NCBI GenBank assembly: GCA_022703965.1 | Contig: JAKJHH010000005.1 | Span: 1 to 39,629 of the forward strand | From: Verrucomicrobiota bacterium | Lineage (GTDB): Bacteria; Verrucomicrobiota; Lentisphaeria; Victivallales; UBA1829 | Length of the DNA: 39,629 nucleotides | Direction of reading: 5' to 3' | In this document: piece by piece, positions 4,601-27,005 of the stretch | How positions within the stretch are numbered: the first letter of the stretch is position 1 | Layout of the letters: every line of letters begins with the position of its first letter | Position numbers and translations under genes: made by a program | Notes under the pieces: model-generated | The model's input: only the letters and a program-made list of their open reading frames with translations | Database searches by the model: none | What the model was told of the DNA's origin: nothing

Positions 4601-5355
4601 GAGTTGACTTCGCCGAACTCCCAGGAGTTACTTGTGTCGTTGACTCCGAGCATGAAAACAGGACGCCCATTCATCCAAAAAGTACCGTTTTTGATTTCCG
4701 GCCGCATCTGAGCGTCGCTTTTAAGAGGATATATGAAAGCGTTTTGTTTCGGATTTTCAGCAGGAGCAAGTCCGGCAGGATTGACAATAATGGATTTTAC
4801 TGTAAAAGACGATGCATAATTGCCGCCAATTCCGAAAGTTCCGGAAGAAAGAGGCTCGGTATCCTTGAATTCACCGATCAGTTTTCCTGAGACTTTCACG
4901 CCGAGAAGTCCTTTGTTCACCGAAAAAGAGATTTCCAGATTGCTGAGGTCGGAGGCAACGTTCTTATAGAGCACAGAACCGAGTTCCTGAATTCCGCTCT
5001 TAGTATGTTTGCGAACTCTGAGAGTCCCCTTGCCAGGCTCATCGATTTCAGCCATATAATAATCGGGATAACGCATATGAGAATAAATGATGAATGCCGA
5101 GTAGCCGGAACGTCCGAACTTCACAGTCACTTCATAATCCTTGAAGGATGAGGCTGCCTTGCAGAGCATTGCCGGATTCTGCTTTTCGGAACTCACATTG
5201 AGGATTCCGGAAGAAATCTTGAAGCAATCCGTATAATCTTTAGGAATATTCCAGCTCTCAAGTCCATTGGAAAAGTCATCCTGAAAAAGCGGAGCGGCAC
5301 AGCATATAATTCCTGCGAAACACAGAAAAGAGGCAAGAATGGAGGCTATTTTCAT
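1663..5355 (-). CDS. Large secreted GH42-like beta-galactosidase family protein
   Basis: A 1230-residue protein. I start it at the ATG at 5355: GGAG lies 9 nt upstream, a signal peptide follows directly (MKIASILASFLCF..., ending near CCAA), and the start clears the preceding stop by 28 nt. An in-frame ATG at 5361 is only 3 nt from the GGAG. Residues about 22-195 look like a concanavalin-type laminin-G/DUF1080-like domain. A glycosidase barrel follows, with VYEIVNE (acid/base candidate Glu407), the GH42-type stretch FSEYLRSKYSNDITKLHKAW, and a nucleophile candidate in MNQES (Glu574). A class-I-glutamine-amidotransferase-like trimerisation segment (IIVPYSKYVFP..., NYVEQGGTAIV) comes next, then a charged helical segment and an unassigned C-terminal beta domain. 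The protein is longer than ordinary GH42 enzymes because of the added end domains. Substrate is unknown. Confidence 0.85.
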   Translation of the reverse strand: MKIASILASFLCFAGIICCAAPLFQDDFSNGLESWNIPKDYTDCFKISSGILNVSSEKQNPAMLCKAASSFKDYEVTVKFGRSGYSAFIIYSHMRYPDYYMAEIDEPGKGTLRVRKHTKSGIQELGSVLYKNVASDLSNLEISFSVNKGLLGVKVSGKLIGEFKDTEPLSSGTFGIGGNYASSFTVKSIIVNPAGLAPAENPKQNAFIYPLKSDAQMRPEIKNGTFWMNGRPVFMLGVNDTSNSWEFGEVNSLPPFEKNDLLTDMLSAEKAARLGFNCVHEYTRPRHVMNDVLDELNFTPEKADLLLGNPYRQHWNERLRHRASLKSLPIVVDYSSLWLDICFNKGVLKRVREAGLPENMVHSGGFLPYTPEEPVAKLIYNTYFREGARYWLNEGKNNPWVYEIVNEVQWYHSLHPVNKLLFSEYLRSKYSNDITKLHKAWGDEYLKSFAQVINSNPSSNKAMFGEWMLFLGDRFNEFFSEAVSSIKEVDAREKTYFDIEISIASLWQPLNGMDYYKLMKKADIFGTEGGVPFGVFEEQKVDWMFEVLNSKRVLTTFNYDLASAFAQGKPVMNQESYVTRSHAELGRVSVKRGDFPALLWFEVFHDVSGSQIYCWWKGGRDFGWKTLEDAKREGRSKNMPPALLNPYLYPMDSLKGMKDFSDEVDKIAELVLPYPRAQKDIMLMYSIPTLWHNPLPVSGAGQVSNYQKHCLAWYEALASLQAPAGVICEQELSEKGAPQAKIIIVPYSKYVFPETLAGLKNYVEQGGTAIVCGSSLDYDYMARPLSAEALLGVRKKGELPQKVSSSLNIGADLKFSSFRDIELVDAETVLSRQDGKPCITQKTIGKGKVFYVAMEDINTQAASALFSFLAQKAAYQIPWKALSASTGKSLPELEIRRIKRENVDIYYFCNWSGRNHEIVNFIPDPAGKATVSYVSDLISFSPFLKDGKSAEWTRADLAKGIKILLPSQERVIIAVSAKPMAEQGKLPWTPERCSTELQKMQKSLDAELAVYDAELAELRKKQKADYDAARKGYSVDPAKCTFIDISAAVNMGFRDEVAGDGKGGWTDQGKMDLRNFPVGQGVYAGVPFKVIDPEKNGGKSCIILKGAIDIFPATSPDIPVGLKCSSLYFLHSSAWGGRNEKQFDYLIRYDDGSEVRFTITGGAQNSDWYDPKAISDGYIAWEGANPAAPRIGLYCTSWKNLNPEKTIKNIKVVSACAEAVPCIVAISAGL

Positions 5356-5383
5356 AAACATTATCTCCGTTGAATATGAGTTA

Positions 5384-5986
5384 TTATTCGTAATCGTCGC
5401 GGAAAAGACGGAAGACCACTTCATTGGTTTTGAGCATGGCAGTATGCCCGTCAACAAAAACGAATGAGGCTGAATTTGCGCCATGACGGTATTTCACGTA
5501 AGCACCGCCTGCAATGTTATTGAAATTCCAGGAGTCAGTCCACCAGTTCGAGCCGTCTGCAAGGATGATATCCTTGGAAGGCTTCTTCACCTGAGTGATT
5601 TCAAGAGGCTTCCCGTCGCTTGTACTCAGAGCCGGGCTCAAAGAGGCGTTGTAACAGTAAGACCATGTTGTTGTCTTCTCGGCAGCCGGACAGCGGAATA
5701 TGGAGTTTTCAGTAGTGCTGTATCCCTTTACATCGCCGACACGTCTGAGCACATCATCCCACTTGGCACCACCCCAGCTTTCATGAACGGGAGGCCAGTA
5801 ACGTCCGCCATAAGTATCGCCGTAATTGACGAGAGCAAGATGGACTTGTTTAAGATTTGAAACGCAACGAATCTGCTTTGCGACATCACGCGATCTGCCG
5901 AGAGCAGGAAGCAGCATCGCGGCAAGTATCGCGATAATCGCTATCACCACCAAAAGCTCAATTAAGGTAAAGGATTTTCTTCTCAT
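5384..5986 (-). CDS. Pseudopilin with prepilin-type N-terminal methylation motif (DUF1559-like)
   Basis: A 200-residue protein beginning [17 protein letters not shown], the classic type IV prepilin signal with cleavage after a short charged leader and Glu at mature position 5. The hydrophobic helix ends at AAMLLPALG. The body contains [20 protein letters not shown] and ends with a C-terminal VFVDGHTAM segment, the H-x-DG-like pattern of planctomycete/lentisphaeral pseudopilins. An upstream ATG at 6010 exists, but the 5986 start has GAGGAG 8 nt away. Such proteins are thought to be inserted into the inner membrane or assembled as minor pilins of a type II-like secretion system. Here it leads a glycosidase operon, so a role in secreting or displaying that enzyme is possible but unproven. 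Confidence 0.92.
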
Positions 5987-6008
5987 TTTGACATCTCCTC
6001 TTGAATCC

Positions 6009-6037
6009 ATTATAAACTGTATATATCTTTAAGTCAA
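6009..6037 (-). promoter_or_regulatory. Promoter of the pseudopilin-glycosidase operon with regulator half-site
   Basis: On the minus strand: TTGACT (6032-6037), 17-nt spacer, TATAAT (6009-6014). The spacer includes the reverse complement of AACTGTATATAT (6016-6027). This resembles the ACTGTTATAT units in the divergent regulator promoter about 60 bp away, so both promoters appear to be under the same DNA-binding protein. Confidence 0.75.
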
Positions 6038-6076
6038 TGCATAGATGATGTTATTTTAAAAATCAGCCATAAATTA

Positions 6077-6105
6077 TTGCAAACTGTTATATACTGTTAT
6101 ATAAT
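6077..6105 (+). promoter_or_regulatory. Promoter and direct-repeat operator of the GntR-SBP regulator
   Basis: TTGCAA (6077-6082), 17-nt spacer and TATAAT (6100-6105). The spacer and -10 consist of two tandem copies of ACTGTTATAT with a 10-bp period (6083-6102), so a bound repressor would cover the RNA polymerase contact. This predicts autoregulation by the adjacent GntR-type protein. Confidence 0.75.
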
Positions 6106-6126
6106 ATAAAAAACAGGAAAAATGAA

Positions 6127-7524
6127 ATGAAAGAAGCAAACAGCAATCCTCCAAAAACTCGCATAATATATGGCGAACTCGAAAGGAAAATCCTGAGCGG
6201 AGAGCTGAGAGAGGGAGAACGTCTCTACAGCGTCCGTCAGATTGCCTCCGAATATAATGTCAGTACTGCTGTCGCTCTTGCCGCTTACAAGTATCTGGAA
6301 AAGAAAAAACTCATAGTAAGAGAAGCGGGACGAGGCACCTTTGTCCGGAAAATCCGTAAGACAGACGACTCGAGTACTCGCATATGCTGCTGGAATGGAG
6401 TATTCCCGATAAACCACGCCGCCAACGTATTCCGCGATCCGCCGCCGGACTTCAAAACCGAATTCCAGCCCTTCTTCACCAATGAGTATGAGAACTATAT
6501 GGAATATATAGAATTCCTCGAAAAGGCAGGAACGGATAACAGTAGCGTTCCGGATATTATTTCAGTTGATGAAGGTCTTTTGCCGATACTCGGGGCCAAA
6601 GGCTTATTAAGCCCGCTGGATCAGTTTCTCTCCAAAGGCAAAGGCGTAAGAAGAGAAGATTTCGATGAAAAACTTCTACAGGGAATGAGCTACGGTGGAA
6701 AACTTTTTGCAGTTCCTTCAAGCTATTCTCCGTGCATACTCTTCTGGAACAGGAAACTCTTTGCGGATAAAGGTCTTAAAGAGCCTGACAGAAACTGGAC
6801 ATGGAATGATTTTTACAAAGCTGCATCCGATATGACATGTATAGCGCCGTCAGGACAGATATCATCATACGGACTCGGCATCACTTTCAGCATCAACAGC
6901 TATGCCCCCTTTATTTATCAGAACGGCGGAGAAATTTTCGACCGCAACGGTTCCTGCGCAATAGGAAGCCGCGAGGCCTGCGAAGCCCTCGGCTTCTTCT
7001 CAAAACTATATAACATGCCCGGAGTCTGCTCGCATCGTTATGGAGATCCCCGAAGCGCACTGGCAGATCTAATGAGCAACGGTAACATGGCAATGCTGCT
7101 CGGTGATGCCATAGAATATCATTTATTAAAAGGAAAAATGCCAGAAAACTCCTTCGGAATGACAAGAGTTCCGGGAATAAACGGACGCCATAACACATCC
7201 TCATCCGTGACCGGCTGGGCAATTCCGGCAGGCTCGGCGAATCCGGAAAAGAGTTTCAAACTGCTTGTTTCCGCCTATAAGAACGGAAAAGTTAAAAATC
7301 TTGCCGCGGCTCACAACACATTTCCAGCCTTCAAAACCGACTCGGAAACTATTCCGCAAGTCGCTATTGATCTAGTCCCTGAAATCAGCTATTCCCTGCA
7401 ATCGCAGAGTCCGGCCGCCTTCAACGCTATAAATTCCACCTTAACAAGTTTCATAAAGCACAAATTGGCACTAGCCCCTGAAAAAATCAGGGAATTCCAG
7501 AACAAAATCAACGCCTCCCTCTGA
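6127..7524 (+). CDS. GntR-type DNA-binding domain fused to an ABC solute-binding-protein domain
   Basis: A 465-residue protein with two clear parts. Residues about 10-78 are a GntR-family winged helix (SGELREGERLYSVRQIA, NVSTAVALAAYKYLEKKKLI, GRGTFVRK). Residues about 90-465 resemble extracellular solute-binding protein family 1, the sugar-binding lipoproteins of ABC importers: PDIISVDE, LLSPLDQF, a hinge-like YGGKLFAVPSSYSPCILFWN, and WTWNDFYKAASDMT. There is no signal peptide or lipobox, so the sugar-binding fold must sit in the cytoplasm as the effector domain. It is divergent from the pseudopilin/GH42 operon, and both promoters carry matching half-sites. Inference: a one-component repressor whose ligand is a glycan breakdown product. 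AGGA stands 8 nt before the start. LacI-like effector domains are the usual partners of such regulators; a family-1 solute-binding partner is less common. Confidence 0.9.
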   Translation: MKEANSNPPKTRIIYGELERKILSGELREGERLYSVRQIASEYNVSTAVALAAYKYLEKKKLIVREAGRGTFVRKIRKTDDSSTRICCWNGVFPINHAANVFRDPPPDFKTEFQPFFTNEYENYMEYIEFLEKAGTDNSSVPDIISVDEGLLPILGAKGLLSPLDQFLSKGKGVRREDFDEKLLQGMSYGGKLFAVPSSYSPCILFWNRKLFADKGLKEPDRNWTWNDFYKAASDMTCIAPSGQISSYGLGITFSINSYAPFIYQNGGEIFDRNGSCAIGSREACEALGFFSKLYNMPGVCSHRYGDPRSALADLMSNGNMAMLLGDAIEYHLLKGKMPENSFGMTRVPGINGRHNTSSSVTGWAIPAGSANPEKSFKLLVSAYKNGKVKNLAAAHNTFPAFKTDSETIPQVAIDLVPEISYSLQSQSPAAFNAINSTLTSFIKHKLALAPEKIREFQNKINASL

Positions 7525-7827
7525 AAAAGATCAGCAGGACGGGAAAAATTTTCCGGAAAAGCTTTGTAACTTTTGCACAGTTTCAGACGAATAATCAGCG
7601 GAAGATTTTATCTGAAATTGTTTTTACCACGGATGGAAACTGCGATTTCAGACAAAAACAAGCCCCTTAAGGACAACGAATTACAGAAACTCCTCCCATT
7701 CTGTAAAAATTGTCTCAAATCTTTCGCCGAAGCCCTGCGGCACAGTGAATGCAAGAAGTTTCCATCCTGAACGGATCGGAAAAAGTCCGTCCGTCGTAAA
7801 TAAGCAAAGCTAAGAAAGGAAAGAACA
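7525..7827. other. Gene-free leader region with nested inverted repeats
   Basis: Between the GntR-SBP gene and the acidic repeat protein I see no convincing gene. The region contains TTTTCCGGAAAA (7549-7560), TCTGAAAT/ATTTCAGA (7611-7618 and 7645-7652), an 8-bp stem TTACAGAA/TTCTGTAA with a 10-nt loop containing CTCCTCCC (7681-7706), and an outer 11-bp perfect pair GGATGGAAACT/AGTTTCCATCC (7631-7641 and 7757-7767). This could be a structured 5' leader or small RNA for the downstream gene. I cannot match it to a known riboswitch. Confidence 0.4.
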
Positions 7828-8535
7828 ATGAGCATCAGCAGTCTGAATTCGAGCTCATCATCTTCCTGGGGACACTCCGGACTCTCCAGCTCAAAGATGC
7901 AGAAGCCGCCGGAAGAACAACTCTCAAGAAAAGAGCAGAAGGAACTCGATAAGCTTCAGGACGTTATCTCAAGTCTGAGCGAAGAAGATAAAGCCGCAGC
8001 TCAGAACTACATGCAGAACGTTCAGGAAGCAATAATCGACGGCACTTTCGATGCAAAAGATCTCGCCGACGCCGCCCCGGACGCACTCAAAGAAGCCATG
8101 GAAGAAGAAGGTCTTGATCTTAAAGACATCATCAAGGACATGGACAGCAACTATCAGACCGCAGTGGCAAACGCGCCTGTCAATGTTGACATCGAATCAA
8201 TGACAAGGTTCACAATTGCAGTTGCAAGCGCGTCCGAAACAGACAGCGAAGAAGTAGAAAAGTACATGGACAAAGTACATGAAGCCATAGAATCCGGCGA
8301 TTTCGACATCTCGGCACTCGCGGCCAAAGCACCGGATTCGCTTAAGACGGCTCTTGAAGAACAGGGGCTTGATATGGAATCTATGATCACCGACATGTAT
8401 ATGAATTCACCTCAGAATATGCCGGTAGTCGACTACAGCTCAAAACTCAACGGCAGTTCAAAGCCCGATAATACATATGGAATGAATCTGGCAATCCTCA
8501 AGACAATATTCAGCGGAGGCGCTGACGAAGAGTAA
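7828..8535 (+). CDS. Acidic two-repeat protein of unknown function
   Basis: A 235-residue protein I do not recognise. The N-terminus is Ser-rich low complexity (residues 1-23). Two similar units follow, about 42-108 and 128-194. Both share the order [SE]EE-x-(A/V)-x(3)-YM-x-(N/K)V-(Q/H)EAI, G-(T/D)-FD, a Leu-Ala-AA/AK-APD-(A/S)L repeat, and EE-(E/Q)GLD-(L/M)-(K/E)-x-(I/M)-I-x-DM. The units are helical, acidic and evidently an internal duplication. The tail is short and ends in acidic residues. There is no signal peptide or membrane segment. GAAAGGAAAG precedes the ATG, and a strong terminator follows at 8566-8613, so it is probably a one-gene transcript. It might be a small scaffolding or adaptor protein; no function is claimed. 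Confidence 0.85.
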   Translation: MSISSLNSSSSSSWGHSGLSSSKMQKPPEEQLSRKEQKELDKLQDVISSLSEEDKAAAQNYMQNVQEAIIDGTFDAKDLADAAPDALKEAMEEEGLDLKDIIKDMDSNYQTAVANAPVNVDIESMTRFTIAVASASETDSEEVEKYMDKVHEAIESGDFDISALAAKAPDSLKTALEEQGLDMESMITDMYMNSPQNMPVVDYSSKLNGSSKPDNTYGMNLAILKTIFSGGADEE

Positions 8536-8565
8536 AAGCGGGCGTTGCTTATTTATGAGGGTAGA

Positions 8566-8613
8566 CTTAGGCGCACTGCTCTTCCATCGGGAAGACAGTG
8601 CGTAAGTTTTTTT
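8566..8613 (+). terminator. Rho-independent terminator after the two-repeat protein gene
   Basis: A long hairpin whose arms pair CTTA/TAAG, GCGCACTG/CAGTGCG and TCTTCC/GGAAGA around an ATCG loop is followed directly by seven T residues (8607-8613). It ends where the convergent kinase gene stops. No T-tract exists in the other direction, so it serves the plus strand. Confidence 0.85.
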
Positions 8614-10037
8614 CAGGAAGTCTTTGCCGTTCCCGGAACAGCCGGGAAGTAGAAGCGGAAACATGCGCCTTGTCCTTCTACGCTTTCAAGCTCAAGGCGT
8701 CCGTCAAATTCCTTCAGAATGTCACGGACAATGGAAAGACCAAGCCCGGTGCCTTCTCCTGGATTCTTGGTAGAGAAGAAAGGCTCCGTACAGCGCCTTT
8801 TGACTTCGGCATTCATTCCAAGTCCGTTGTCTTTCACTTCAAAGACAACTTCGCCGTCCTTGGTGTAGAGAGACATTCTGATTTCCTTCTTAAAGTCACG
8901 GCCTTTACGGTTACCCATCTCATCGACAGAAAAACGAGCATTGGAAATAACGTTGACGACAATCTGTTCAAAGCGTTGCGGATCAATGATGACGGACGGA
9001 ACATTCTTATCAAGTGCCATCTCAAGCGCAATATTATGAAGTCGTATCTGCTCCTGAAAGAAAGAGATTCCCTCTTCAATGACAACAGCAAGGGAAACTG
9101 ATTGCGGGCCGGAACCTTTGAGTCTGACAAAGGATCGCATGTGATTGATGATTTTGGAGGCGCGGTCAACACATTTGATTCCTATGTCAAAAGCCTCGCC
9201 GAGATTCTTCTCCTTGAGCGCCGGGGAGTTACCGAGAACAGCCTGAAGCAGCTCAAGATATCCGCGGATTACGCAAAGCGGCTGATTGATTTCATGAGCC
9301 ATGCCGGCCGCCATTTCGCCCATCGCTGTAAGGCGTCCTGCATGAATGAGCTGATTCTGTTTCTGCTCAATCATGGCCTCCTGTCTGGCTGAAATCTTCA
9401 TGTGCACAATGAGGAGCGGAAGAACAAGAAGCATGAACATCACGGCAAGCGCTATCGAATAGGCAATATTGCGGTGCATGATTGAGCGGATATCCTTGAG
9501 CTCCATATCAGCCCCCATAACATAAGTATTGCCTGCCGGGCTTTTGACAGGGAGAAAATATGAGCGGAATGTCCCCCATTTATCGGTGTATTCGGCGACA
9601 ACAGGAACAAATTCTGTAAATGCTTTGTGAAGATTCTTTGGAGCGTCATCGTATTCGGACATGAATTTGACCGGAGGCTGTACATTCGATTCACAGTCGC
9701 TCGTGAAACAGATTTTACCATCCTTGAGCACCATTGAATAAACATATCTGACATCAATATCTTTTGTATACTGGGTAAGGGTATTCCTGAGCTTCATGTA
9801 ATCTTCATCAGGAATTGAGCCCCCTTGCATGCCGATGTCATGAATCTGTTCAGGAATCATATACTTTCCGCCGCCTGCTGCGACTCGCAACCTGTCATCA
9901 ACAGATTTAAGATATTCCTTGTTTATCTGTCGGCAGAAGATGACGGAGCATATTATGACTCCGACAAGATATATTCCGATGGCAATCCCGATCATGAGAT
10001 TGCTTATGCGCGGCACTGGCTTAATAGCGGAGCTCAT
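8613..10037 (-). CDS. Membrane sensor histidine kinase
   Basis: A 474-residue kinase. One transmembrane helix lies at about 15-35 and a second at about 192-213, enclosing a roughly 155-residue periplasmic sensor domain with DVRYVYSMVLKDGKI and GNTYVMGADMEL, which looks like a Cache/PAS-like fold. The HisKA region has GEMAAGMAHEINQPL with the phospho-accepting His248. The ATPase domain shows the N-box Asn366 (VVNVISNARFS), DNGLGM at 403-408 and GEGTGLGLSI at 427-436. The order and the NQPL phrase after the His are typical of DctB/NtrB-like kinases. No response regulator or receiver domain is adjacent, so it is an orphan whose partner must be elsewhere. GAGG stands about 12 nt before the start. 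Confidence 0.93.
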   Translation of the reverse strand: MSSAIKPVPRISNLMIGIAIGIYLVGVIICSVIFCRQINKEYLKSVDDRLRVAAGGGKYMIPEQIHDIGMQGGSIPDEDYMKLRNTLTQYTKDIDVRYVYSMVLKDGKICFTSDCESNVQPPVKFMSEYDDAPKNLHKAFTEFVPVVAEYTDKWGTFRSYFLPVKSPAGNTYVMGADMELKDIRSIMHRNIAYSIALAVMFMLLVLPLLIVHMKISARQEAMIEQKQNQLIHAGRLTAMGEMAAGMAHEINQPLCVIRGYLELLQAVLGNSPALKEKNLGEAFDIGIKCVDRASKIINHMRSFVRLKGSGPQSVSLAVVIEEGISFFQEQIRLHNIALEMALDKNVPSVIIDPQRFEQIVVNVISNARFSVDEMGNRKGRDFKKEIRMSLYTKDGEVVFEVKDNGLGMNAEVKRRCTEPFFSTKNPGEGTGLGLSIVRDILKEFDGRLELESVEGQGACFRFYFPAVPGTAKTS

Positions 10038-20658: not shown

Positions 20659-21123
20659 TTACAAACTCATAAATCTGGAGGGATCGAGGACGGAAATCAG
20701 GCCTTTTTCAGTTTTGCAGATGGACACTGTATAACGGCTTTTCACCGAGCCGGAAACAGAGGATATATCATGGGCGGAAGTCCATGCTTCAAGATCACTG
20801 TTCTTTGAACTGAAAATCTCGCCTGCCCTGTCGACGAGAATACCGAAGGCAGGACCGGTGCTTTCCTTGAAGAAAATCAGATCTTCAGAAGCAGGACGCG
20901 GAGCCTCGTTTCCTATCATTTTCCTGAAATCCAGAACAAGGTTGATTTCGCCTCGCACATTAATGTAGCCGCGCACGATATCCGGAGCATGAAAGACAGG
21001 AGTAATCGTGCTCAGTTCATGATGACTGCGCACCTCTTTGACATCGTTAGCCTTTACGGCAAAAGTCTGTCCGTCGCTTATGAAAGAATAAAGCTGTGTA
21101 TGTGAGTCAGAGTTTTCCTTCAT
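20659..21123 (-). CDS. cheW: CheW-like chemotaxis coupling protein
   Basis: A 154-residue single CheW domain. QLYSFISDGQTFAVKANDVKEV is the entry strand and helix; PDIVRGYINVRGEINLVLDFRKM is the characteristic centre (the G-x-(I/V)-N-(V/L)-R-G-x-I-x-x-V phrase); GILVDRAGEIFSS follows. CheW tethers the kinase CheA to receptors at the inner face of the membrane. Its ATG overlaps the cheA stop by 4 nt (ATGA), so the two are translationally coupled. There is no methyl-accepting receptor gene nearby; the candidate input is the double-Cache protein at the head of the operon. Confidence 0.93.
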   Translation of the reverse strand: MKENSDSHTQLYSFISDGQTFAVKANDVKEVRSHHELSTITPVFHAPDIVRGYINVRGEINLVLDFRKMIGNEAPRPASEDLIFFKESTGPAFGILVDRAGEIFSSKNSDLEAWTSAHDISSVSGSVKSRYTVSICKTEKGLISVLDPSRFMSL

Positions 21124-24095
21124 TGTGATGCCGCCTTTTTTTCAGGGTTGTATCTGGCAAAGAACTTGGCAATCTGCGAGAGGAATTTTTCACGCTCAAT
21201 CTTGACGATATAATCGGAAAAGCCGCTCTGAAACGCAGTCCTGCGGTCGTGATCGGAATCAAGGGAAGTGAGGGCAATAGCGGGAAGCTCTCTCGTCTCG
21301 GGGTTTGCCCTGACAGCCTCGACAAGACGCCAGCCGTTAACAAAGGGCATTTCAAGGTCGGAGAGCAGCATGTCGAATTTCTGTCTCCCGAGGATTTCCA
21401 GAGCTTCACGTCCGTTTGCCGCAGTCGTAACATGATAATTGTCGGACTCAAGATATTTACGCACAAGCTGACGGAAAAAAGGAGTATCCTCAGCGAGCAG
21501 AATTCTGATCTTGGAATTTGCATCCCGGTCACGTTTCTGAACGTCTTCACCGGCAAACCATTCGGGCTCGATCTTTTCGATGACCCTGTAGATATCCGGA
21601 AATATGACGATTTTAGGTCCTACGGTGGCGCTTCCGATGATACCGTCTTCCACATATCCGCGTGAATCGAAATGAGCAACAATGTCCTCGATTTCCTCGA
21701 ACTCCGAAGCAAGAATTCCGAAAGGACGCTTTATGTGCTTGGGCAGAATAAGGAACATATCGTCCTTTATCTCACACGGAGAAACATTGAGTGCCTGATC
21801 CAGACTGACAACCTGAGTCGGCACGCCGTCCACCGTCACGAAACGACGATTGCCGATGATCTGAATGTTTTCAGCTTTAATCCAGTCGACACGCTTTATC
21901 AGGGCAAGAGAAATTGCAAACTTCTCATGAGGTCCGCTGCGGAAGCTGAGTACTTTCTGAGCATCATCCGAACGCGCTACAATCACCTCCGGCTCATGCT
22001 CGACACTTGAAGAGGATGAGCCGTGGATGTGTCCCAGCGCATGTTTGCCGATTCCATCTATATCAAGAATCATGGAAACAGAGCCGTCGCCGAGGATCAT
22101 TGCTCCGAGGTAACACTTGAGATTCTTGAGCATGGGATGCATCGGTTTGACGACGATTTCTTCAGTCCCGACAACTTTATCCACCACAAGCCCGTAATGT
22201 CTGGAACCGACTTTCACAACAGCGATATTCAAGGAACGCAAACCGGCGCTTGTCAAGAGAGCCGCATTCTGTTCAGCGGCAGCGTTTGAACTTGCTATTT
22301 CGGCGCGCTTCGCATCGCTAAACGGACTTGCACTGCGCAAAACTTCGTTGAAGCGGACAAGCTGCACAATCCCGCCGTGATAACGGAAGACTTCCTGCCC
22401 GTTGAAGATTTCAATTTTACCTGCGATTTCCTTGCCGAAAAGACATACCACTTCTTCGAGGTTGACTTGAGGGATGGCAAAGCGCTGTCCTGACGACTCA
22501 ATCAGCAAACTCGACATGATAGCCAGAGTCAGCGGCAAAGAGAGGGTGAGCGTTGTTCCCTTGCCCGGAATTGAATCAATGTCCAGAGAGCCGCTGAGTT
22601 TTTCTATTGCGCTCTTAACTACATCCATCCCCACGCCGCGGCCTGAGATTTCACTTACTTTGGAGGCTGTGGAAAAACCCGGCAACATGATAAGTGAAAG
22701 TATCTGTCTGGGCTGAAAATGACGTAAATCGTCAGCAGTCTTCAAACCTTTTTCAATCACTTTCCGGCGTATCATTTCGGGGTCAATTCCCTTGCCGTCG
22801 TCCGCAATGCTTACAATAATCTGTCCGCCTTCGTGACGAGCCTGAACAAATATTTTGCCCCCCGGAGTCTTACCGACTTTTACTCTGTCAGGCGGATCCT
22901 CGATGCCGTGATCGCAGCAGTTGCGGATCATATGAGTAAGGGGATCGGCAAGAGATTCAAGGATAGTCTTGTCAACTTCAACGTCTTCACCGGCTATTTC
23001 AATGTCAATCTGCTTGTTAAGTCTTGAGGCAAGATCACGCACAATTCGCGGGAGCTTCCCGAAAACATTACCAAGAGGCTGCATGCGTATATTCATGACA
23101 GAATTCTGAAGTTCCGAAGTCACGGCGTTGAAACGACGACTGATCTCGCTTGCCATTCCGTCCTGACGTCCTGTAAAATACTGCATATGCTGATTTCTGA
23201 CAAGCACAAGCTCGCTGGCAAGATTCATAAGATGATCAAGCACCTCTACATTGATTCTGACAGTCTCGGTTCTCACGGTTTTTCTGACATGGGCTTCCTG
23301 AGCAGCTTCAGGCGCAGGTATAGGAATTGAAGGCGTCAGCTGAACTTTTGCAGGAGCCTCCTGAAGCGGCGGATTGGAAGGCCATGACGCGGCAGGCGCA
23401 GAAGAAGAAGGCTGAATTTTAAGCTGAAGAATTTCACTGCCTTCTGTTACTACAGCCGCTCCTATCATATCCGGATCAAGCATGGTCGCGAAAAAGAGTT
23501 TTATTCCGCCAGCGATGCTTTGACGTTCAATGGACTGTCCGAAGTTCATAAGTTCATTGAAAGCCTCCTCGCATTCATCAGGATTTCCTTTAATGTGAAT
23601 TTCGTAAAAGAATGAGGAGGAAGCAGGAAGCTTGTCAATAATTTCCTGAGTAAGCACAAATGAAGCGGCCTTCAAACTTTTCGCCGGAGCAGAAGCCGCA
23701 GCAGGACTTTTTCCCGAAACAATGCTTTCAAAAGCCGAAAGCAGAGCGGAACACTCAGTGTGCTCATCTTTTCCGGCTACATCAAGCATTTTATTAAGGA
23801 CATCCACTCCTTGCAGAAGCTTTTCGATGAGATCAGGTCTTGCCTCAAGCTTTCCGGAACGCACAAGAGAAAGCACGTTCTCCATGGAGTGTGAAAAGGC
23901 ATTTATAGCCTCAAGATTCAGAAAACCCGCCGCGCCTTTTATGGAGTGTATGCCGCGAAAAATCCTGTCTATAAGCTCCTTCTTTTCTCCATCCTGAGCG
24001 CTGTCCAGCTCAAGCAAAAGCTGCTCCGACTCGGCAAGATGCTCGGAGGCCTCGGAAATGAACTCCTCAAGGAGTGTGGAATCTGTATTTTCCAT
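21120..24095 (-). CDS. cheA: Hybrid CheA kinase with two CheW-like domains and a receiver domain
   Basis: A 991-residue protein. Domains in order: Hpt (1-125) with GIHSIKGAAGF and phospho-His50; a P2-like middle domain (about 145-228); a Pro/Ala linker; the dimerisation helices (275-340, LMNLASELVLVRNQ); the ATPase (350-520) with HMIRNCCDHGIED, ADDGKGID and GRGVGMDVV; a first CheW-like domain (525-690); a second CheW-like region (about 700-850, LSFRSGPHEKFAISLALIKR); and a receiver domain (863-980) with Asp870, phospho-acceptor Asp913, Thr943 and Lys965. The Pro that normally follows the receiver Lys is replaced (VKIE). The layout is that of FrzE/ChpA-type or other alternative-function CheAs, not the simple flagellar enzyme. 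It starts 24 bp after the Cache gene and overlaps cheW by 4 nt. Confidence 0.93.
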   Translation of the reverse strand: MENTDSTLLEEFISEASEHLAESEQLLLELDSAQDGEKKELIDRIFRGIHSIKGAAGFLNLEAINAFSHSMENVLSLVRSGKLEARPDLIEKLLQGVDVLNKMLDVAGKDEHTECSALLSAFESIVSGKSPAAASAPAKSLKAASFVLTQEIIDKLPASSSFFYEIHIKGNPDECEEAFNELMNFGQSIERQSIAGGIKLFFATMLDPDMIGAAVVTEGSEILQLKIQPSSSAPAASWPSNPPLQEAPAKVQLTPSIPIPAPEAAQEAHVRKTVRTETVRINVEVLDHLMNLASELVLVRNQHMQYFTGRQDGMASEISRRFNAVTSELQNSVMNIRMQPLGNVFGKLPRIVRDLASRLNKQIDIEIAGEDVEVDKTILESLADPLTHMIRNCCDHGIEDPPDRVKVGKTPGGKIFVQARHEGGQIIVSIADDGKGIDPEMIRRKVIEKGLKTADDLRHFQPRQILSLIMLPGFSTASKVSEISGRGVGMDVVKSAIEKLSGSLDIDSIPGKGTTLTLSLPLTLAIMSSLLIESSGQRFAIPQVNLEEVVCLFGKEIAGKIEIFNGQEVFRYHGGIVQLVRFNEVLRSASPFSDAKRAEIASSNAAAEQNAALLTSAGLRSLNIAVVKVGSRHYGLVVDKVVGTEEIVVKPMHPMLKNLKCYLGAMILGDGSVSMILDIDGIGKHALGHIHGSSSSSVEHEPEVIVARSDDAQKVLSFRSGPHEKFAISLALIKRVDWIKAENIQIIGNRRFVTVDGVPTQVVSLDQALNVSPCEIKDDMFLILPKHIKRPFGILASEFEEIEDIVAHFDSRGYVEDGIIGSATVGPKIVIFPDIYRVIEKIEPEWFAGEDVQKRDRDANSKIRILLAEDTPFFRQLVRKYLESDNYHVTTAANGREALEILGRQKFDMLLSDLEMPFVNGWRLVEAVRANPETRELPAIALTSLDSDHDRRTAFQSGFSDYIVKIEREKFLSQIAKFFARYNPEKKAASQ

Positions 24096-24119: not shown

Positions 24120-26525
24120 TCAGAAAGGACGCACGACATGAGCGGACCACTGAAGTCCCTTGTATTCTCTGTAACCCTGAGTGCGCGACGATCCTATGAT
24201 GTATTTTCTGCCCTTATGCACAAGGAATCCTGAAGAGGATTCTCCGGCGGCGAGCTTCAGACATTCAGGCGGCAGTTCCAGAAGCGTACCGGCGGGAAAA
24301 TTCTCTTCATCGGTCGTTTCAATGACTGAGCCTGAGGAGTTTGTATAGAATGCCGCGCTTCCGCTGATAAATTCTCCGCTACGGTTCTTTGGAAGGCAGC
24401 ACTTGAGCATCTTTTCGGCCTCGGTATCCCAATCAAAGAGCACACCGAGAACTCCGATAGACTCGGAATTGACCTGTCCGTTTTTGCGGACTCCGCCGGC
24501 GTAAACAAGACTGAGAGCCTTGTTCTTTTCTAGTTCGGAGTGCTGGACGTCCTGAACGGCGAATTCAGTGGAATTCAAGGTCTGGAGTCCATTCATGAAC
24601 CACTCGTGTTCAGACACATTCAGAGACTGAAGACGCTGAAGCTGTGAGGAGTTGGAGCATGCGATAATCTCGCCCTTTGCGTTCGCGAGTATCAGATTCC
24701 GGTACATGGTATAGCTGTTGTTGATAACTTTCAGACGTTCGCAGGCACGCTTGGAATTCTCCTCAGATGGATGCATGAGGGCTTCCCAGAAATAGCGGTC
24801 TGTCGCCCACCAGCGGATGTCTGCCGCGCGCTCGAAAAGATTGCGGTCGATGAGGTCGATAGCCTGATGGCTGAATGTTCTCAGCGTCCTGAAGTTCAAA
24901 GCCAGCTCTTCGAGAGCCATCTCATGAAGCAGTTTTTCCATGCACTTTGTGGCGAAATCTCCGGTCTTTGTCAACTGTTCAAAAACAGGCCCGAGAGCCT
25001 GACCGCGTGAGCCAAGCTCAGTCGCGAAAAGAATACCGTTGGTCGAAATCAGCTGAAGTGTCCTCTTGTCCTTCTGGACGTACCGGTATGTCTTCTTATT
25101 GATGTCAGGAGTAATCTGCGAGCTCATAAGCTCATTAATATCAATATCGTTCAGAACTTCATAAGACTGGTCGTCGAATATGGTATTTTTGAGGACGATA
25201 AGATTTGAATTCCAGTTCAGTCCCTTGTAGTCGAGATATCCGTCGCTTCGAGCTGTGAATACAGCCGAGTCGCGGCCTCCCGCCGTTATATAACTGCTGA
25301 CTGTCTGCCCGGGCTTGAGTTCTCTGTGCAGGCGCGGCAGAGCGCTTTTTTCACCTGAAGAGAACATATATTCATCGCTGCTGGCGAGAATACGTCCCTT
25401 GTCGTCAGTAAAGAAGGAATACCATCCTTCCTCGATTTCACCCGAGGAAGTTCTGGCCATATGGTCATTCAGAATAATCTGCGCCTCTCCCTGGAAGTCG
25501 AAGAATACACCGAGAACACCTATAGGTTCGGCATTGCTTTCGCCGTTCTTTCTGATTGCAGTCGTATATATCAAAGAGTCCTGAGACTCGACTGAAGACT
25601 TTGTAAGAGTCTCATGGAAATGATTGGAGCTCTGAGTCGCCATCGCCTTGGAAAACCATTCTTCGGTTTTGACTGAGAGTCCCTGAACAAGAGCGCGTCT
25701 GGCACGGTTGGCTGTAGCCACAACATTTCCGTCGAGATCGCAGAGAACAAGCTCTCTGTAAAGAGTATATGAGCGGTTAATCGCCTCAAGACGGTCGCAG
25801 GCAAAGTCTATTTTCGCGTGCAGTTTTGAACAGTCAGCCAGAACACGAGTCAAAAGATCAGCAACATTTTCATCATGAGCGCGGCTGCATATCGACTGGA
25901 TCTGAGGCAGTATGCTTTCGGCCTCCTTCAGCATTATCGGAGAATAAAGGACATGAACACCGGCGATAAACGCGTTGCGGAACTTCATCGCTACAGCGAT
26001 TTCCTCCTCAGTGATGCTTACGTTTTTCTTGAGGAGTCCCGCAATACGGTTTTTGTTGATGCTGTCCATCAGCGGCACATAGAGGGCGTCCAGCTTCTTC
26101 AGCTGCTCACGGGCAGTGTTGAATGAACTGAGGCAGTCCCCGAAAGCCGTTTCCAGCGCCCACCATCTCACATCGCATGTACGCTCAAGCAGATTGCGGT
26201 CTATCGTGTTGATCTTGCCGTAAGCCATCGTTGAAAGAATCATACGGTAGAATTCTTCCTTGGCAAGATAAAACTGTCCGAAAAGATTTTTAGTGCCTTC
26301 CAGAAGTTCTCCGCGGAAAGTTTCGACGCGGTTCATCAGATCCTTGATAGTGTCCTGTTCGCGCGCATTTCGTCCGATATCGACGGCAAGACTTTTACCG
26401 TGATTACAGACGGGTAGAATAATATTCAGTTCGTTCACGATCTGTTCATAGAACTCACGATGTTTGTGAGTCACAACCGGATCAAAAATTGAAAACTTAC
26501 GTTCCTTCTCATTCGAGCTGCCCAT
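24120..26525 (-). CDS. Soluble double-Cache sensor protein, presumed CheA/CheW input
   Basis: An 801-residue protein. I start at MGSSNEK (26525), where AGGAGG is 9 nt upstream; the open frame runs back to 26654 but has no ribosome site there. It is built from two similar halves. Each has a motif DRNL(L/F)ER(T/A)(C/A)D(I/V)RWWA (about 109-123 and 560-574), then a helix with LExINxSYTxYRxL, then a Cache-like ligand domain (about 250-445 and 592-801) with (E/S)IGVLGV-(F/L)-FD and (Y/F)KGLxW(N/S). A roughly 100-residue helical insert separates the first motif from its Cache. I see no transmembrane helix, HAMP or MCP signalling hairpin. Cache domains normally face outward, so a cytoplasmic placement is odd. 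First gene of the unit with cheA and cheW. Confidence 0.8.
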   Translation of the reverse strand: MGSSNEKERKFSIFDPVVTHKHREFYEQIVNELNIILPVCNHGKSLAVDIGRNAREQDTIKDLMNRVETFRGELLEGTKNLFGQFYLAKEEFYRMILSTMAYGKINTIDRNLLERTCDVRWWALETAFGDCLSSFNTAREQLKKLDALYVPLMDSINKNRIAGLLKKNVSITEEEIAVAMKFRNAFIAGVHVLYSPIMLKEAESILPQIQSICSRAHDENVADLLTRVLADCSKLHAKIDFACDRLEAINRSYTLYRELVLCDLDGNVVATANRARRALVQGLSVKTEEWFSKAMATQSSNHFHETLTKSSVESQDSLIYTTAIRKNGESNAEPIGVLGVFFDFQGEAQIILNDHMARTSSGEIEEGWYSFFTDDKGRILASSDEYMFSSGEKSALPRLHRELKPGQTVSSYITAGGRDSAVFTARSDGYLDYKGLNWNSNLIVLKNTIFDDQSYEVLNDIDINELMSSQITPDINKKTYRYVQKDKRTLQLISTNGILFATELGSRGQALGPVFEQLTKTGDFATKCMEKLLHEMALEELALNFRTLRTFSHQAIDLIDRNLFERAADIRWWATDRYFWEALMHPSEENSKRACERLKVINNSYTMYRNLILANAKGEIIACSNSSQLQRLQSLNVSEHEWFMNGLQTLNSTEFAVQDVQHSELEKNKALSLVYAGGVRKNGQVNSESIGVLGVLFDWDTEAEKMLKCCLPKNRSGEFISGSAAFYTNSSGSVIETTDEENFPAGTLLELPPECLKLAAGESSSGFLVHKGRKYIIGSSRTQGYREYKGLQWSAHVVRPF

Positions 26526-27005
26526 TGCCATTGTCCTCCTGCTTCCTCGGGAAAAATGCTCTCTCCAAATTGCCATGCATTTAGCGGACGGACTGAAGAA
26601 GATCTTTGTGAAGAAATCTCGCGGCGGCGGAAGTCCAGTGTTGCCCCTTATCACCAGACTGCCATGCTAAAAAAGTTCTTCTTCAGACAGTCCTCTAACC
26701 AACTGTTAGCAAGTTATTGTTAAAGCATCAGATATGCCAGCTTCATCCGGCAAAGCCATAAACCCTTGATGTAAAGGCATATATTTTAAAATTATACTAA
26801 ATAAAATCTCTCATATTTGAACACAAAATCCTCAGAATAACATTTTTGTATGTCACCAGAAACTGAAATTATTACATTTTTGTAAAAACAACGGTCTTTC
26901 TCAAAAAAAGATGCTTCTTACAGACTGCCTTGTGACAAAAGAGGCTTGGCGTGCTAAATTATCCATTTAAGGAGCGGAATTAACTTCTAAACAAGGGAGA
27001 AACTA
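26526..27005. other. AT-rich divergent intergenic region
   Basis: No gene seen. It separates the che operon (minus) from the LptF/G gene (plus). A perfect TATAAT on the minus strand at 26791-26796 has no good -35 at 17 nt, so it is only a weak candidate for the che promoter and would give a leader of about 260 nt. The plus-strand promoter is listed separately. Confidence 0.4.
26932..26960 (+). promoter_or_regulatory. Promoter of the LptF/LptG permease gene
   Basis: GTGACA (26932-26937), 17-nt spacer, TAAATT (26955-26960), about 45 bp before the start codon. Confidence 0.5.

Follow-up and report, generated by a model that had tools for sequence, protein, structure and literature searches.

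A soluble tandem hairpin-dCache protein encoded with CheA and CheW is a likely relative of short cytoplasmic chemoreceptors

The first gene of a che operon in a Verrucomicrobiota genome encodes a protein with two dCache domains which is likely to be a soluble chemoreceptor: we propose that it arose by tandem duplication of a short hairpin-dCache methyl-accepting chemotaxis protein (MCP) and couples to CheA/CheW via a divergent hairpin tip. The operon lies in the window, i.e. the whole stretch of 39,629 nucleotides that was analysed, and comprises three genes:

24120..26531, minus strand, tandem hairpin-dCache gene; 803 aa from the ATG at 26531, 801 aa from the ATG at 26525
21120..24095, minus strand, hybrid CheA (Hpt - dimerisation - ATPase - CheW - CheW - REC), catalytic motifs intact
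20659..21123, minus strand, CheW of 154 aa, with a 4-bp overlap with cheA

The open reading frame at 24120-26525 had been described from the DNA letters as an 801-residue protein that opens a che unit, and it is indeed a real gene; AGGAGG is found at 26535-26540, ahead of the candidate starts. The gene order is cache-cheA-cheW, with a gap of 24 bp between the tandem gene and the hybrid CheA. The operon contains no CheY and no other output gene, and the REC domain of its CheA may act as output or as phosphate sink. The encoded tandem protein is laid out as follows:

26232..26495, minus strand, helical segment 1 (aa 13-100), putative degenerate half-1 counterpart of the MCP hairpin
26157..26201, minus strand, motif 1 DRNLLERTCDVRWWA (aa 111-125), predicted start of Cache helix 1
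25812..26141, minus strand, half-1 insert (aa 131-240), poorly conserved (mean entropy 2.04)
25176..25811, minus strand, dCache 1 (aa 241-452), Pfam PF02743
25113..25175, minus strand, linker (aa 453-473), poorly conserved (mean entropy 1.91)
24873..25112, minus strand, helical hairpin 2 (aa 474-553), probable degenerate MCP signalling hairpin, from HMM and shuffle test and from the model
24948..25049, minus strand, hairpin 2 tip ISTNGILFATELGSRGQALGPVFEQLTKTGDFAT (aa 495-528), from conservation and an ungapped register with the MCP tip
24804..24848, minus strand, motif 2 DRNLFERAADIRWWA (aa 562-576), within the long helix 514-575 of the model
24123..24803, minus strand, dCache 2 (aa 577-803), from Pfam and Foldseek

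The two Cache halves of the preliminary description were confirmed by Pfam, which matched dCache_1 twice (4.4e-13; 49.8 bits against a cut-off of 45), as was the DRNL[LF]ER..D.RWWA motif ahead of each. The model of dCache 2 had the DctB sensor domain 3e4o as its top Foldseek match (E 8e-10), and chemoreceptor dCache domains were also matched; a search of the half-2 profile against PDB sequences gave no match, and PHROGs gave none. Cache domains are usually described as extracytoplasmic sensors (PMC12889525). No membrane segment or signal peptide that would place the Cache domains outside was found: the peak 19-residue hydropathy of the window protein is 1.2 from either start, whereas MCPs encoded in this genome reach 2.3-3.1, and the maxima of four full-length family proteins tested range from 1.2 to 1.5, again from either start. 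No HAMP domain was found either. PF00015 gave no match above cut-off in the three tandem proteins scanned by Pfam (the window protein and its G055 and SZUA orthologues), and an in-house MCP HMM matched no tandem protein. Thus the absence of a membrane segment, of HAMP and of a Pfam MCP match, as first described, stood, but the further claim that the protein has no MCP hairpin did not: a probable degenerate hairpin precedes Cache 2, and a weaker counterpart precedes Cache 1. We regard the statement that there is no signalling hairpin as probably wrong and the negative as a limit of profile detection.

The evidence for hairpin 2 comes largely from single-unit relatives. A search with the C-terminal half retrieved single-unit proteins in the window's phylum, on Pseudomonadota plasmids and in the phylum to which the MAG SZUA-567 belongs. 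The 23 that were read are soluble, of about 350 aa, and consist of a short N-terminal MCP hairpin, RNLYER.CDVRWWATD and a dCache domain; mostly, no che genes are linked to them. In all four tested against Pfam, PF00015 was matched at 1e-14 to 1e-20 directly ahead of the RWWA helix and the dCache domain, so that, contrary to the usual order, the sensor comes after the hairpin. These soluble MCPs share with the tandem protein the order of parts, the motif helix, the dCache domain and solubility; unlike it, they have one unit and a canonical tip recognised by PF00015, and mostly do not lie beside cheA/cheW. WP_060148510.1 of Burkholderia stagnalis and WP_269154015.1 of Methylobacterium currus, for example, are annotated only as methyl-accepting chemotaxis protein. 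The cytosolic formaldehyde sensor of Methylobacterium is MtpA (PMC10613068) and, since that genus has single-unit relatives, a relation to MtpA was considered, as a lead. Some single-unit genes have signalling neighbours: at three loci (L102, L104, L107) they directly adjoin hybrid histidine kinases and REC proteins, not cheA, and at L101 one is the divergent neighbour of a hybrid CheA (5270-6580 and 6629-9370).

In the window protein, ISTNGILFATELGSRGQALGPVFEQLTKTG, which lies before Cache 2, aligned to the MCP tip with zero gaps, and a MAFFT alignment of all units, unprompted, matched LISTNGILFATELGSRGQALGPVFEQL in half 2 to the MCP tip. Each of the nine half-2 sequences aligned to the HMM of the 23 single-unit proteins without a break across hairpin 2. 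When the hairpin alone was shuffled, the real HMM score was equalled in 0-1 of 500 trials per sequence, with a mean loss of ~9-14 bits; the nine tests are not independent because the sequences are related orthologues. Four MCP tip residues (N381, A386, G390 and G393 in Tsr numbering) are retained in 10/10 tandem tips as well as in the window genome's own MCPs. Two hallmark residues are changed in all ten tandem proteins, E385 to F and R388 to K, E or D. No other 34-aa stretch of the family is as conserved as aa 495-528, top of 770 windows across the ten proteins and ahead of both Cache domains.

AlphaFold applied to half 2 with four sequences predicted a helix at 475-507, a turn at 508-513 and a second helix at 514-575, with confidence that was fairly high for the Cache domain and low for the hairpin (pLDDT about 40). 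The modelled turn falls where MCPs have theirs, at the equivalent of Tsr 391-396, and the second helix continues into the RWWA motif and dCache. In this model the hairpin arms appear shorter than those of canonical methylation bundles; the genome's one CheR is encoded elsewhere. A full-length model with two sequences was unusable (pLDDT 39). Profile-profile comparison of the isolated hairpin was weak (probability 5%, E 0.007, with 4 of 200 column shuffles scoring as high), so it is the anchored alignment that carries the case for homology. Taken together, the motif- and Cache-anchored alignment, position, conservation and predicted fold suggest that hairpin 2 is probably a homologue of the MCP tip in the correct register.

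For hairpin 1 the signal was fainter. Helical segment 1 is kept within the family (42 of 88 positions are invariant across the ten tandem proteins), and the alignment of half 1 to half 2 showed G45, A49 and G53 to be kept. Its similarity to the MCP hairpin was marginal, with 1-39 of 500 shuffles reaching the real score. Judged from these alignments, hairpin 1 appears more degraded than hairpin 2, and its homology to the MCP hairpin is weak. The two hairpins are of similar length, their tip-to-motif distances differing by about 3 residues.

Tandem orthologues were found at nine other loci, 47-67% identical to the window protein, and in the window's order the family is rare, being present in 2 of 137 genomes, although these are mostly incomplete assemblies. 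In a tree of motif-Cache units, single units, first halves (99/99) and second halves (90/89) each grouped as one clade; since each half forms one clade, there was one old duplication, after which both halves were always retained. In G742 the tandem gene (L095 5896-8323) is in two overlapping frames, split inside Cache 1 by a frameshift or an assembly error.

The family is also tightly linked to chemotaxis genes. Both cheA and cheW adjoin the tandem gene in all ten cases with readable neighbours, with cheA only partly on the contig in two, so that the gene does not occur mostly apart from che genes. The order cache-cheA-cheW is found in the window, in G055 and in one G548 copy, and the order cheA-cheW-cache in SZUA-567, the other G548 copy, G790, G567, G742, G697 and G758. 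CheA proteins with two CheW domains and REC belong mostly to class F5 (PMC10782961), and the operon CheA has Hpt, kinase, two CheW domains and REC in common with them. The idea that the tandem-linked CheAs form one clade was rejected, as they fell in two clades that match the two operon orders. G548 carries both operon types in one genome (L091, L093), with tandem proteins and CheAs from both clades. In G055, the cache-cheA-cheW operon has genes resembling FliW, FlgB and FlgC, as judged by eye, at a distance of ~4 kb (L014 2054-3392).

The window genome, 78% complete, encodes 22 MCP signalling domains, three CheAs and one CheR. Given those 22 domains, the proposal that the tandem protein stands in place of a chemoreceptor does not apply genome-wide. 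The proposed tie of a cytoplasmic Cache protein to CheA/CheW held, and it is supported from within the same genome: the sole other copy there, a paralogue of 839 aa (L013 3631-6150, contig C361), fuses Cache, Cache and a C-terminal CheW domain in one chain. The anchored HMM-shuffle test gave no hairpin signal in this fusion. The only CheR found in the genome (C361:13677-14288) lies about 7.5 kb from it.

The tandem protein probably descends from MCPs and works like them, but it is set apart from ordinary MCPs by having neither a PF00015 match nor E385/R388. Its ancestor would have been a short cytoplasmic MCP, arranged as signalling hairpin, helix 1 and dCache, that was tandem-duplicated. An intracellular ligand would bind one or both dCache domains, and Cache helix 1, i.e. 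the RWWA helix, which is predicted to be continuous with the returning hairpin arm, would then move the hairpin directly, with no membrane and no HAMP involved. Such a membrane-free path agrees with the arrangement seen in the single-unit relatives. The tip of hairpin 2 would dock on the operon CheW, on the CheW domains of the hybrid CheA or on both, and so switch the kinase. By packing in cis, the halves of one chain may form a pseudo-dimer in which hairpin 1 would be the diverged partner arm; cis packing is possible because the hairpins are similar in length and the linker has about 21 residues.

Docking had been proposed to occur through the conserved motif itself, with a Cache sensor that lacks any signalling hairpin binding CheW via RNLxER..D.RWWA. 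The conservation of the motif in both halves and the constant proximity of the gene to CheW/CheA speak for this proposal, which we nevertheless consider highly improbable. The motif is common to the 23 single-unit MCPs, which already have a standard MCP tip and mostly lack linked che genes, and a close variant, DRNLFERYGDVQAFA, is present in L031, a Cache MCP of the ordinary transmembrane kind. It also falls inside the Pfam dCache_1 alignment of one relative and, in the half-2 model, within the long helix that enters the Cache domain. These comparisons and the model argue that the motif is better explained as Cache helix 1 and is not a likely dock; a more plausible docking surface is the tip of the hairpin (aa 495-528), whose conservation is no lower and whose position is more favourable. 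A different doubt concerns whether the protein is the operon's input receptor at all. It could instead be an accessory or decoy regulator, either an antagonist of CheW/CheA or an adaptor of ordinary MCPs, as might suit a genome with 22 MCPs and two further CheAs and a tip without the hallmark E385/R388, but this appears unlikely, as one hybrid CheA and a CheW accompany the gene without exception in ten loci and two dCache sensors are retained.

MCPs and dCache domains are normally homodimers, and the protein might likewise assemble in trans, either as a homodimer, which would hold four hairpins, or as a higher oligomer. Being one form of the soluble-receptor explanation, this arrangement shares part of its probability; it is possible though somewhat doubtful: engineered single-chain Tsr molecules do swap subunits (PMC4692393), but the halves have always both been kept and are separately specialised in the tree, and the hairpins are similar in length. 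Engineered Tsr~Tsr single-chain receptors do signal if their linkers are long enough, and single-chain MCP signalling domains that are natural and soluble have been noted in Rhodospirillum centenum (PMC4692393). Both have two signalling hairpins per polypeptide, as the tandem protein is proposed to have; they are recognisable MCP domains, whereas in the tandem protein a dCache domain of its own follows each hairpin C-terminally and the tips have diverged. With transmembrane dCache chemoreceptors (PF02743, HAMP and PF00015) the protein has in common a dCache sensor and probable MCP-type hairpin ancestry, but it has no membrane segments or HAMP, its sensor follows the hairpin, and the hairpin is much shorter. 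We suggest, tentatively and as a serious possibility rather than our expectation, a natural single-chain pseudo-heterodimer of two specialised hairpin-dCache units head to tail, with a rewritten but strongly constrained tip without E385/R388, a dedicated hybrid CheA/CheW and perhaps a core complex that is organised otherwise than around trimers of receptor dimers.

PF00015 is the profile by which receptors are counted, and che operons with an apparently missing receptor would on this evidence have one that escapes that profile. The tandem family would offer naturally swapped-out tips for asking which contacts the control of CheA/CheW needs, and would let single-chain receptors and the cytoplasmic use of Cache domains be studied in a natural example. 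Elsewhere in the window, positions 7828-8535 encode a 235-aa protein in which an internal repeat of the type LSEEDKAAAQNYMQNVQEAI..GTFDAKDLA..APDALKEAMEEEGLDLKDII occurs twice.
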